The position numbers were made by a program, and so were the translations under genes. A stretch of DNA of 31,473 nt, taken from IMG/VR virus record IMGVR_UViG_3300025120_000299, positions 1 through 31,473 of that record; one strand, written 5' to 3'. How positions within the stretch are numbered: the stretch's first letter is position 1; every line of letters begins with the position of its first letter. Below the pieces are notes generated by a model, which saw only the letters and a program-made list of their open reading frames with translations, was not told where the DNA came from and searched no databases. This document shows positions 6,043 to 31,473 of the stretch, piece after piece. The DNA is from a virus.

Positions 6043-6446
6043 TTTTCAAGTAGTTTTTTAACTTCATCACTAACTTTTAAAAGATTGTCATTCTCGTAAT
6101 TATCTTTTCTTTTCTTATCTTTTCTTAATGCTTTAGCGGTGCTTAAGCCCCCCTTACGACCATTAGCAACATTTCTTTTATGTTCTGCTAATCGTTCTTT
6201 GTGTTGTTCGTCAAGCCATTTAATTTTAATATTATCTTCTTCAATCTTAAATAGTTCACAATCAAGTAGTAAGCTCCATTGTTTAGGTATTAAAGACTTT
6301 ATTTGTGTTCTTGTAACATTGCATTCTTTGCTCCAATAATAGCAGCAGACTTTTAGAAAAGCTCCTTGTACATCTAAATCCATAAATGATATTGAGCCTG
6401 TTATCCATTGATTAGGATAAAATTTAAAGTATGGTAATTCTTTCAT
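6039..6446 (-). CDS. DUF1376-like replication initiation protein
   Basis: The 135-aa protein starts MKELPYFKFYPNQWITGSIS, the typical beginning of DUF1376-type phage replication proteins with a winged-helix core. An NVANGRKGGLS linker (about 91-101) and a very basic stretch KALRKDKKRKDN follow. In related proteins the linker leads to a helicase-loading tail, which here is short (LLKVSDEVKKLLEK). The DNA encoding the linker (6101-6149) is nearly repeated downstream of terL as a palindromic non-coding copy. As in lambda O, an origin inside the gene is therefore plausible. It overlaps the helicase gene by 4 nt. Confidence 0.75.
   Translation of the reverse strand: MKELPYFKFYPNQWITGSISFMDLDVQGAFLKVCCYYWSKECNVTRTQIKSLIPKQWSLLLDCELFKIEEDNIKIKWLDEQHKERLAEHKRNVANGRKGGLSTAKALRKDKKRKDNYENDNLLKVSDEVKKLLEK
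6101..6149 (-). repeat. Repeat shared with the terL-downstream palindrome; possible origin
   Basis: On the minus strand GCTTAAGCACCGCTAAAGC is followed by ATTAAGAAAAGATAAG and more GATAA/GAAAAG units. The copy after terL reads GCTTAAGCACCCCTTAAGC plus ATTAAGATAAG, so the first 30 bases differ at only a few positions. Here the sequence encodes the basic linker of the replication protein. Purine-rich repeats inside an initiator gene are a common place for a phage origin. The origin role is inference. Confidence 0.5.
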
Positions 6447-18713: not shown

Positions 18714-18743
18714 AAAAAAAAGGGAGGCTAACTACTTCCTCCC
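18714..18743 (-). terminator. Strong intrinsic terminator after the tail tube gene
   Basis: On the minus strand the stem is GGGAGG (18743-18738) with CCTCCC (18727-18722) across a 10-nt loop, followed by eight T (18721-18714). It lies between the tube gene and the 118-aa/portal genes and should reduce transcription into portal. Confidence 0.85.
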
Positions 18744-18792
18744 CTTCAAACCAACTATATTATGAATTACACAACTATTAATTGAGTATTTT

Positions 18793-19341
18793 TTAACTAT
18801 TAGTACCTACTGTTACAGTTACAGTTGCTGAACTCATACCAGCAAAAGGATTCGCAGCAGTTCCACCACTTATAAAGTTAGCAGGCTTCAATTCAGAAGC
18901 AGCTAAAGTTAAAGAGTATCCGCTCAAATCACCAAATGCAGTACCAGTCGCAATTGAACCTCCAGTTACTTCACAACCGTGTGCAGTTCCACAAAGCATA
19001 AAGTTTCCATTTCTGTCTTCTATTGCTATATGTGGTCTACCGTAAGCCATTAGTTTTAATTCTTTATTATCTTCTTTAGATAATTTAGGTAAAGTTAGTG
19101 TTAATGTTTGTTCGAAGAATGTAGTTCCATTCTCTCTTGAAGAAGTAATAGCTTGTTCTAAACTATTTGTTCCTTTCAAGTCGTATTGGTAGCAGGTAAA
19201 TGTTCCGCTTAAATCTGTTATTTCGTCGGCTGTTTCTGTAACTGTACCTAAATCTCCGAAGTCTACAAACCAAGCTCTAACAATTCCGCCAATCTGGTCT
19301 TTACAAGGATTCTTACGTCCTGCTGATAAATCGCATGCCAT
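18793..19341 (-). CDS. Major tail tube-like protein
   Basis: The 182-aa protein begins MACDLSAGRKNPCKDQIGGI, a start typical of a family found directly after the capsid gene in Bacteroidota siphophages. A beta-rich body includes TFTCYQYDLKGTNSLEQ and FFEQTLTLTLPKLSKEDNKEL, compatible with the tube fold, and the end is Thr/Val-rich. Size and position fit the protein that stacks into the tail tube around the tape measure. It is flanked by a weak and a strong terminator, which would tune its amount. A capsid-decoration role is the less likely alternative. Confidence 0.7.
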   Translation of the reverse strand: MACDLSAGRKNPCKDQIGGIVRAWFVDFGDLGTVTETADEITDLSGTFTCYQYDLKGTNSLEQAITSSRENGTTFFEQTLTLTLPKLSKEDNKELKLMAYGRPHIAIEDRNGNFMLCGTAHGCEVTGGSIATGTAFGDLSGYSLTLAASELKPANFISGGTAANPFAGMSSATVTVTVGTNS

Positions 19342-29749: not shown

Positions 29750-30231
29750 AAAAAAACAAGTGAACCAAATACAATATCTAAAGTAATATTTTGTAAATCG
29801 TATTTATCTGAACTTTGATAATCTTCTATTAAATATTGCTCTTTCTTCTTGTATGTAATTGGCCTAAATAAAACACTAATTGCTTTGTGCATCAATTGCC
29901 AATCTCCAAGATAAGTATCTAAATCAATATACTCACCAAAGCTCATATCGTCTAATTTTGGTATAAATCCAAACTCTGTTTCATTATGATTAAACTTATT
30001 TATGAATTTAGGTTTTTGTTCAAATAGCTTTGTAATGTTTTCGCAAATGTTATTTATATCAATAGCTTTAATTTGTAAGACTTGTTTTAATTCAATGTTA
30101 CAAAATATTTCTACCATCTTCTGCTGAAGAAAATTATCTACTTCTTTACCTTCTGCAATCTTTAACCATTTTTGGTATTGCTTTAGTGTAACTTCATTTA
30201 ATGATTCTGGTATATTTATAGTTAACTTCAT
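29596..30231 (-). CDS. Tail assembly chaperone, zero-frame form (gpG-like)
   Basis: The 211-aa protein starts MKLTINIPESLNEVTLKQYQ and is helical and mixed in charge. It has LDDMSFGEYIDLDTYLGDWQ in the middle and ends LIKNGVGINPFMDFAKVTLE. The order and frame relation to the following ORF match siphophage chaperones, which bind the tape measure and bring it to the tube protein. At codons 159-162 (GTT TTT TTT TGG) lies U UUU UUU, a classic slippery heptamer. Ribosomes that shift -1 make the 247-aa form. The candidate regulatory element is 8 nt before the ATG, so this is the first gene of the tail transcript. Confidence 0.78.
   Translation of the reverse strand: MKLTINIPESLNEVTLKQYQKWLKIAEGKEVDNFLQQKMVEIFCNIELKQVLQIKAIDINNICENITKLFEQKPKFINKFNHNETEFGFIPKLDDMSFGEYIDLDTYLGDWQLMHKAISVLFRPITYKKKEQYLIEDYQSSDKYDLQNITLDIVFGSLVFFWNLRTELQNHILNYLANQKEVKVPQDFQDLIKNGVGINPFMDFAKVTLEK
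29748..29756 (-). promoter_or_regulatory. Slippery U9 run for -1 frameshifting
   Basis: Nine consecutive T on the minus strand, read as GTT TTT TTT TGG in the zero frame, so the P and A sites hold TTT TTT. A slip of -1 continues TTT TTT TTG GAA into the downstream frame. RNA polymerase slippage on the same run could give the same product. Confidence 0.65.
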
Positions 30232-30238
30232 TTATATA

Positions 30239-30268
30239 TAATGTAAAAAAAAGTGCTTAGTGTTATGT
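30239..30268 (-). promoter_or_regulatory. 30-bp element before the tail block (copy A)
   Basis: The minus strand reads ACATAACACT, a variable stretch and ACTTTTTTTTACATTA. It differs from 20947-20976 at only three positions. It lies between the terminator at 30277-30315 and ATG 30231, with just 8 nt to the ATG. It starts the tail gene block. A phage-specific promoter or operator is suggested. Confidence 0.5.
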
Positions 30269-30276
30269 ACGAATTT

Positions 30277-30315
30277 AAAAAAAAAGGATGCAACGCTCTT
30301 TTGCCGACTACATCC
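30277..30315 (-). terminator. Intrinsic terminator before the tail block
   Basis: On the minus strand GGATGTAGT pairs with GTTGCATCC (five Watson-Crick pairs, then wobbles), followed by nine T (30285-30277). It isolates the tail genes from transcripts coming from terL or from the island promoter. Confidence 0.75.
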
Positions 30316-30374
30316 TTAACCATTGACATATACTTAATGGTAAATTTTACACATTTAGTTTGCTATACAAATAT

Positions 30375-30407
30375 AAAAAAAATGGAGCAACTCCTGAGAA
30401 TTACTCC
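30375..30407 (-). terminator. Strong intrinsic terminator of the terL-downstream RNA
   Basis: Minus-strand stem GGAGTAA (30407-30401) with TTGCTCC (30390-30384), seven pairs including one G-T, across a 10-nt loop. One A and eight T follow (30382-30375). It is placed to end the transcript from the promoter at 30550-30579, or terL read-through. Confidence 0.85.
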
Positions 30408-30543
30408 AAATCTTTAAAAAGTAAATTTCGCGGTCTACTTTTAAATGCGTTCTGGACTTACTCTACTTCGCAATTAAGCTTCTTACGATGCCAGATTTAT
30501 AAAACTTATTTTACAAGAATTTTCGTCGAAGTTAATTCTTTCT
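30375..30543 (-). ncRNA. Candidate phage small RNA downstream of terL
   Basis: A Bacteroidota-type promoter (30550-30579) and a strong terminator (30375-30407) enclose about 165 nt with no minus-strand gene. The RNA would hold a 5' hairpin (AAGAATT with AATTCTT around 30536-30508), a closing helix TCTGG/CCAGA (30497-30452 region), a long stem TTTAAAAGTA with TACTTTTTAAA (30444-30413) and the terminator hairpin. Between the two strain copies this region shows far fewer substitutions than terL. It could be an sRNA acting on host or phage transcripts, a packaging-related RNA, or a leader that attenuates tail transcription. The helices are drawn by eye. Confidence 0.5.
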
Positions 30544-30549
30544 TGTGGT

Positions 30550-30579
30550 CAAATATAATTATAATTAATTAAATACAAA
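30550..30579 (-). promoter_or_regulatory. Bacteroidota-type promoter downstream of terL (right copy)
   Basis: TTTG (30579-30576), 18 nt, TATATTTG (30557-30550) on the minus strand. It is identical to the left copy at 167-196. The predicted start is about 30541-30544. Confidence 0.6.
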
Positions 30580-30603
30580 ACATTTTACACTTTTTTTTTA
30601 CTC

Positions 30604-30657
30604 TTTATCTTATCTTATCTTTTCTTATCTTAATGCTTAAGGGGTGCTTAAGCGGGG
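30604..30657 (-). repeat. Palindrome plus GATAAG tract after terL (right copy)
   Basis: Same element as 221-274, without substitution: GCTTAAG-CACCC-CTTAAGC on the minus strand followed by a purine tract with GATAAG units. See also 6101-6149. Confidence 0.6.
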
Positions 30658-31473
30658 CTAATAGAAATGATATTCACCTAAATTAGGATTCTGCAACTGA
30701 TAACTTACTGCATATCTCAAAGCATCAATAGCGTGGTTAAAATTGTCAACAGGTGTTTGTGATTTCTTTTCCAACCAACAATAATTGTTAAGCTCTTTAA
30801 TTAAATCTGTGCTATCTTCTGTTATTATTAAATCATAATCTTGTAGCAAGCTTATACCAAATGTTATTGAACCTTGTCCTTTTATTGCTGGAACAATATT
30901 ACAATCTTTGCTTAATTCATTTATTAATCTTGGTTCTGCTGAATCACCAACAATTAAATTGTTAGCTGCAAACTTTTTATTTAATACTGATATTTCGCTT
31001 GTAGTTAGTTTAGGTTGATAGAAACATAGTTGAACATAAATAATTTTATTCTGTTTGTCTATACTTGTTTTAAGTAGTGTTGAAGGGTCATTACTAAATC
31101 CATAATCTTGTCCAAAAACTATTTTACCTACTTGCTTAAATTCTCCGATGCTCCAATTACTAAATATAACACCTTCTGCTTTATCAAGCCAAGCTCCTTC
31201 AATAGTGTGCTTATATCTTTCAGGTCTTCTTTGTTTCATTTCATTTATCTGTTCAATGTAACTTGCTGATAAATTTTCTATATTATCTAAATATGTTGTA
31301 TGGCAATAACTTGTATTGCCTTTTATTAAATTGCTTCCAGCTTCAACACCTCTAATCTCAAAAAACCTTTGATATATCCAATGTTCTTTAGTTGCTGGAT
31401 TCATTATCATTATCACTCTATTTCTTGAGCCTTGTTGCCTTACTGATAAATCTATTTTATCAAATATATCTTC
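30658..31473 (-). CDS. terL: Terminase large subunit, partial (second strain copy, codons 129-399)
   Basis: The frame stays open to the right edge of the window. It covers codons 129-399 of the complete copy at 275-1474, including the MNP motif and all three nuclease acidic residues. Against about 50 nucleotide changes, only N233S and V344I change the protein. The N-terminal ATPase half lies outside the window. This is a truncation by the window edge and not a broken gene. Confidence 0.95.
   Translation of the reverse strand, partial: EDIFDKIDLSVRQQGSRNRVIMIMNPATKEHWIYQRFFEIRGVEAGSNLIKGNTSYCHTTYLDNIENLSASYIEQINEMKQRRPERYKHTIEGAWLDKAEGVIFSNWSIGEFKQVGKIVFGQDYGFSNDPSTLLKTSIDKQNKIIYVQLCFYQPKLTTSEISVLNKKFAANNLIVGDSAEPRLINELSKDCNIVPAIKGQGSITFGISLLQDYDLIITEDSTDLIKELNNYCWLEKKSQTPVDNFNHAIDALRYAVSYQLQNPNLGEYHFY

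Follow-up and report, generated by a model that had tools for sequence, protein, structure and literature searches.

A candidate non-coding RNA cassette and a second, covarying RNA unit in the hypervariable slot behind a phage terL gene

The stretch of DNA analysed here (the window) is a single IMG/VR virus record of 31473 bases. When its two ends were compared, bases 1-1090 matched 30384-31473 at 95.3% identity, and the differences in terL are mostly third-position and synonymous. Such an overlap suggests a genome that is probably circular or terminally redundant, of approximately 30.4 kb, and assembled from two strains. The genes flanking the island described below are on the minus strand. 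TerL, of the Terminase_3 type, ends at 30658 (a full copy lies at 275-1474), and the next gene starts at 30231 and encodes a 211-amino-acid protein of PHROG 32199. The nearest named TerL, from Nonlabens phage P12024L, is 49% identical; there, terL abuts the next gene. The window contains no tRNA or tmRNA genes, and the Rfam 15 covariance models gave no match to it up to E = 2.

Directly behind terL is a conserved repeat (30609-30655, minus strand), which reads GCTTAAGCACCCCTTAAGCATTAAGATAAGAAAAGATAAG and forms the left edge of the slot between the two genes. A second copy at 6100-6148 lies about 4.6 kb upstream of terL, and a comparable pair is present in related loci. The repeat might serve in packaging, replication or recombination.

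The preliminary description of this locus proposed that a Bacteroidota-type promoter and a strong terminator enclose a gene-free stretch of about 165 nt. On the minus strand both signals are indeed present in the sequence: the promoter occupies 30579-30550 and reads TTTG-N18-TATATTTG, and the intrinsic terminator occupies 30408-30375, consisting of an 11-bp hairpin (TGGAGTAATTCTCAGGAGTTGCTCCA, 30408-30383) followed by T8 (30382-30375). No other terminator-like site detected in the window scored as high. In a pattern scan of the window, the only other full promoter of the kind in non-coding sequence was at 10175-10145 (minus strand); it heads an ORF of 109 aa and is similar to the promoter of the island across about 50 bases. 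In Flavobacterium psychrophilum the TAnnTTTG box sits at -12 to -5 (PMC9723704), which places the predicted start near 30545. The transcript, here called RNA A, would thus run from approximately 30545 to approximately 30376 on the minus strand (about 170 nt, both ends predicted). Its strand contains no ATG and no notable reading frame, so the island is gene-free on the coding strand as proposed. On the plus strand, a 70-codon frame opening with TTG (30360-30572) had no PHROG match and was rejected as a protein of the island. The predicted fold of RNA A is modestly more stable than those of shuffled sequences (z = -2.2).

Comparison of the two strains indicates that this stretch changes slowly. 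In the intergenic part present in both strain copies, 4 of 274 sites differ, compared with 40 of 272 third codon positions of terL (Fisher P = 2e-9) and 17 of 72 four-fold sites; intergenic divergence is therefore about ten-fold below that of third codon positions. Only the changes at 30511 and 30542 fall within RNA A. The island looks constrained approximately as first and second codon positions are, unless recombination has made the strains share the stretch, and the low divergence could come in part from a common recombinant haplotype. The whole cassette had been said to be kept in both strain copies. The unit does occur in both, but the second copy starts at 30384 and so includes neither the T8 run nor any sequence beyond it. 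RNA A homologues were found neither among annotated phages, nor with an exact 18-mer from its 3' hairpin, nor across all fetched terL loci. A search with its core motif returned chance matches and one already known locus (L339).

The surroundings of RNA A become clearer in relatives. Eighty loci with a related TerL were fetched, and in 60 distinct relatives the slot between terL and the next gene (30232-30657 in the window, minus strand) measures 40 to 2217 nt. Its edges are conserved and its middle is not. The related marine phages probably infect flavobacteria. Promoter modules equivalent to that of RNA A were found at 38 places in these relatives. Most head one small ORF (42 to 112 amino acids) that differs between phages, and some head stretches with no ORF; in the slot of other relatives there is a gene that resembles a DNA methyltransferase by its C-terminal motifs. 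At seven aligned loci (L025, L014, L036, L129, L146, L154 and L201) the slot carries a strongly conserved, ORF-less candidate RNA of about 450 nt with its own promoter and terminator (L025:3191-3653). Its strand has no frame of more than 45 codons, the folding z is -3.7 in L025, both sides have changed in 11 of the predicted pairs, and Rfam gave no match in L025 or L014. The Rfam matches in 11 related loci were limited to tRNAs, one sub-threshold match and, on another contig, a glutamine-II riboswitch. The occurrence of ORF-less RNAs in the same place behind an equivalent promoter, together with the promoter, the terminator, the lack of an ORF and the low strain divergence in the window, supports the proposal that a discrete non-coding unit lies between terL and the next operon. 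The further suggestion that its RNA is associated with packaging fares less well. A general role of this kind is unlikely, since many close TerL relatives (L046, L049, L056, L064 and L066-L068) have a gap of only 40 to 54 nt, with no room for RNA A or for the second RNA described below. It could still be a regulatory RNA or a decoy.

A short motif, RNA C (P1-GGCA[UG]C...GUAAGUCC-P1'), lies directly before the cargo terminator in many relatives. Covariation of its P1 stem was 0.412 against 0.077, a value inflated by several distant rows that had been picked for their paired flanks. RNA A contains a similar motif at 30451-30495 (minus strand), UCUGG-CAUC...GUAAGU-CCAGA, with a 5-bp P1 (UCUGG/CCAGA). 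Shuffled sequences reached the RNA C loops with a P1 of at least 4 bp in 14 of 60000 cases, and a model of RNA C built from the relatives only (R2) gave no match to the motif in RNA A. RNA C-like motifs with long P1 stems also occur on other phage contigs (L304 near 1855 and 5780; L330 near 4242 and 4931), where they precede small genes and lie a short distance upstream of predicted tRNA genes. These may represent a wider phage RNA motif or be partly due to chance.

RNA A might be what is left of a protein cassette that has kept its promoter and terminator but lost its ORF, so that the transcript is a functionless remnant. Most slot occupants in the relatives are, after all, small protein genes behind the same kind of promoter, the occupants turn over rapidly, RNA A had no homologue in the collections searched and its internal motif resembles the element that precedes the cargo terminator elsewhere. 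Against a decaying remnant, the intergenic strain divergence is some ten times below that of third codon positions, and ORF-less occupants recur, among them the conserved structured RNA of about 450 nt. We therefore regard decay as a possible but rather unlikely origin of RNA A.

A second unit, RNA B, follows immediately on the minus strand and had been missed in the preliminary description. Its putative promoter has the same -7 box, TATATTTG, at 30375-30368, which shares one T with the T8 run of RNA A (the last of the eight); the box is conserved upstream of RNA B in relatives. From model R1 and folds, RNA B is predicted to be about 85 nt long (30363-30278), with a hairpin at its 5' end that a linker joins to the terminator hairpin. 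The terminator hairpin (30315-30286) has the covarying stem GGAUG/CAUCC and is followed by T9. Within it, the core UAGUCGGCAAAAGAGCGUU (30310-30292, minus strand) is nearly fixed across relatives, while the stems around it differ in sequence: GGATG/CATCC in the window and GTAGG/CCTAC, ATAGG/CCTAT, GGGG/CCCC, GAGGAAG/CTTCCTC and others in relatives. Among 28 distinct sequences, 94.5% of the cells of this hairpin are paired, and pairs changed on both sides make up 8 of 8 in the outer part and 1 of 3 in the inner part. Covariation was 0.517, compared with 0.223 (sd 0.020) in shuffled and at most 0.213 in slid alignments; in a first set of 24 sequences it was 0.527. A second class of core, UAUUUGCAAAAGAGCAUUG, has U-A in place of the inner C-G and thereby keeps the pairing. 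The compensatory changes that had been proposed as a check of the island are clearly seen in RNA B; for RNA A, no homologue was found in which to look for them. The 5' hairpin varies in sequence and was predicted in all ten members that were folded. Upstream of RNA B, almost every one of 74 contexts has a TATATTT[GA]-like box or a close variant of it, while no conservation is seen in the -33 region; a T-run follows the hairpin in the members.

RNA B is present in dozens of IMG/VR phage contigs. Its position is constant, always between terL, with or without intervening cargo, and one downstream gene family, and this synteny holds in two divergent TerL lineages. With model R1, 29 of the 81 terL loci gave a match, as did 29 of 33 further loci. 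Among 16 whole records searched, 11 contained RNA B, at one copy per record of about 30 kb. The R1 match in the window itself (30278-30375, E = 2e-12) follows by construction, because R1 was trained on a set that included the window; what counts there as independent evidence is the exact core and the synteny. R1 also gave a weak match at 18715-18801 (minus strand, E = 0.51), a GGGGAGG...CCTCCC hairpin with T8 between two genes. It was rejected as a second RNA B, being a terminator-like hairpin with no core.

In bacterial genomes the exact core matched 14 times, in every case with neither hairpin nor terminator, and R1 gave no match in 395 Bacteroidota genomes, a search run with no positive control. 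Related queries had no DNA-similarity match in named or annotated phages, and RNA B is absent from Rfam. A search for a partner of the loop found none, with no other match to the loop in the window. Covariation, synteny and the lack of an Rfam entry together make RNA B a new family of predicted phage RNAs, and on this sequence evidence it is a more secure finding than the RNA A unit. Covariation of the stem on its own demonstrates a terminator, because a terminating stem has to pair in any case. For the same reason it is the fixed inner loop, and not the stem, that hints at a further function.

One such function would be in the control of the genes that follow. RNA B, and perhaps RNA A, could be the leader of the downstream operon, with the fixed loop as a site that controls read-through, as at lambda pR'-tR'. 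As expected of a leader, the gene family after RNA B is always the same, and the conserved loop forms part of the terminator itself. However, one of the lineages has another promoter box directly after the RNA B terminator, in the other a non-coding stretch of about 350 nt separates RNA B from the gene, and the slot of many relatives is too short for a leader. Leader function is thus an unlikely explanation. The core might also work as DNA, being a site for recombination or packaging whose place in a terminator hairpin is a coincidence. There are repeat elements nearby, and one contig (L149, near 895, reverse strand) has the left half of one TerL lineage and the right half of the other, joined within the core; it may be a recombinant or an assembly chimera over some 24 shared bases. 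Almost every member has the promoter box and the T-run along with the core, and the second core class, in which the inner C-G becomes U-A, still pairs. A DNA element is accordingly very unlikely.

The reading that we prefer, to which we assign a probability of about 0.58, is that RNA A is an autonomous cargo cassette in the slot, that RNA B is a second unit, and that both have the roles set out here. The anatomy of the units, the variability of the slot and the covariation and synteny of RNA B are read from the sequence, and from them we infer transcription, action in trans and the existence of a target. The island would be an autonomous minus-strand cassette that produces the ORF-less RNA A of about 170 nt from a host sigma-A-type promoter and ends it at an intrinsic terminator of its own. 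It would occupy a hypervariable cargo slot, as an 'RNA moron', where the equivalent promoter of relatives drives a small protein gene or a structured RNA; in this view the slot of each phage has at least one such autonomous cassette. The RNA B unit would start within the T-run of RNA A. RNA A most likely acts in trans as an accessory, host-directed RNA, perhaps one that antagonises a host factor or a defence factor or serves as a decoy for it. The fixed loop of RNA B is most likely presented to a protein or RNA partner that is common to the hosts or to the phages. Both RNAs lie in a slot whose varied small genes and RNAs probably serve the phages in dealing with their hosts. Host-directed action is suggested because small, unrelated occupants turn over under a conserved promoter, which is typical of accessory genes. 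A stronger version, in which the slot is a dedicated site for interchangeable counter-defence or host-control agents (proteins in some strains, RNAs such as RNA A and the RNA of about 450 nt in others), and in which RNA B is their constant companion and uses its fixed loop to bind a factor conserved in hosts or phages, is doubtful.

The open-access papers that were searched contain no description of such RNAs, and they say very little about small RNAs from marine phages of Bacteroidota. The slot offers a simple way of collecting accessory small proteins and RNAs, which is to take the sequence that comes after the conserved promoter module behind terL. If its occupants do act against host defences, it would be a ready source of candidates, RNA-based ones included.

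Several known systems invite comparison. GOLLD and ROOL are phage-encoded, structured non-coding RNAs whose function is unknown (PMC12286853). RNA A and RNA B resemble them as predicted structured non-coding RNAs of a phage, but at about 170 and 85 nt they are far smaller, and they lie in a window with neither tRNA genes nor Rfam matches.

The packaging RNA of phi29 is a phage RNA of about 170 nt that is required for packaging. RNA A is of similar length and is encoded beside the packaging gene; however, the TerL of the window is of the Terminase_3 type, and neither RNA A nor RNA B is present in close relatives by TerL, so TerL functions independently of them. A packaging RNA of the phi29 type was therefore rejected, RNA B being present in only 29 of the 81 terL loci and many slots being too short.

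The late leader of lambda (6S RNA, pR'-tR') is a short promoter-proximal transcript with a terminator upstream of the late genes, and this terminator is read through when a factor recognises the RNA. RNA B is likewise predicted to be a short promoter-proximal transcript ended by a terminator. It differs in keeping a fixed hairpin loop and in that about 350 nt can lie between it and the next gene.

Phage morons are autonomous promoter-gene-terminator cassettes, usually described with protein genes. The RNA A unit has the same layout, with its own predicted promoter (30579-30550) and intrinsic terminator (30408-30375, minus strand), in a slot whose flanking genes are nearly adjacent in some relatives and whose contents differ from phage to phage. 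It departs from the usual moron in its cargo, which would be an ORF-less RNA in place of a protein gene.
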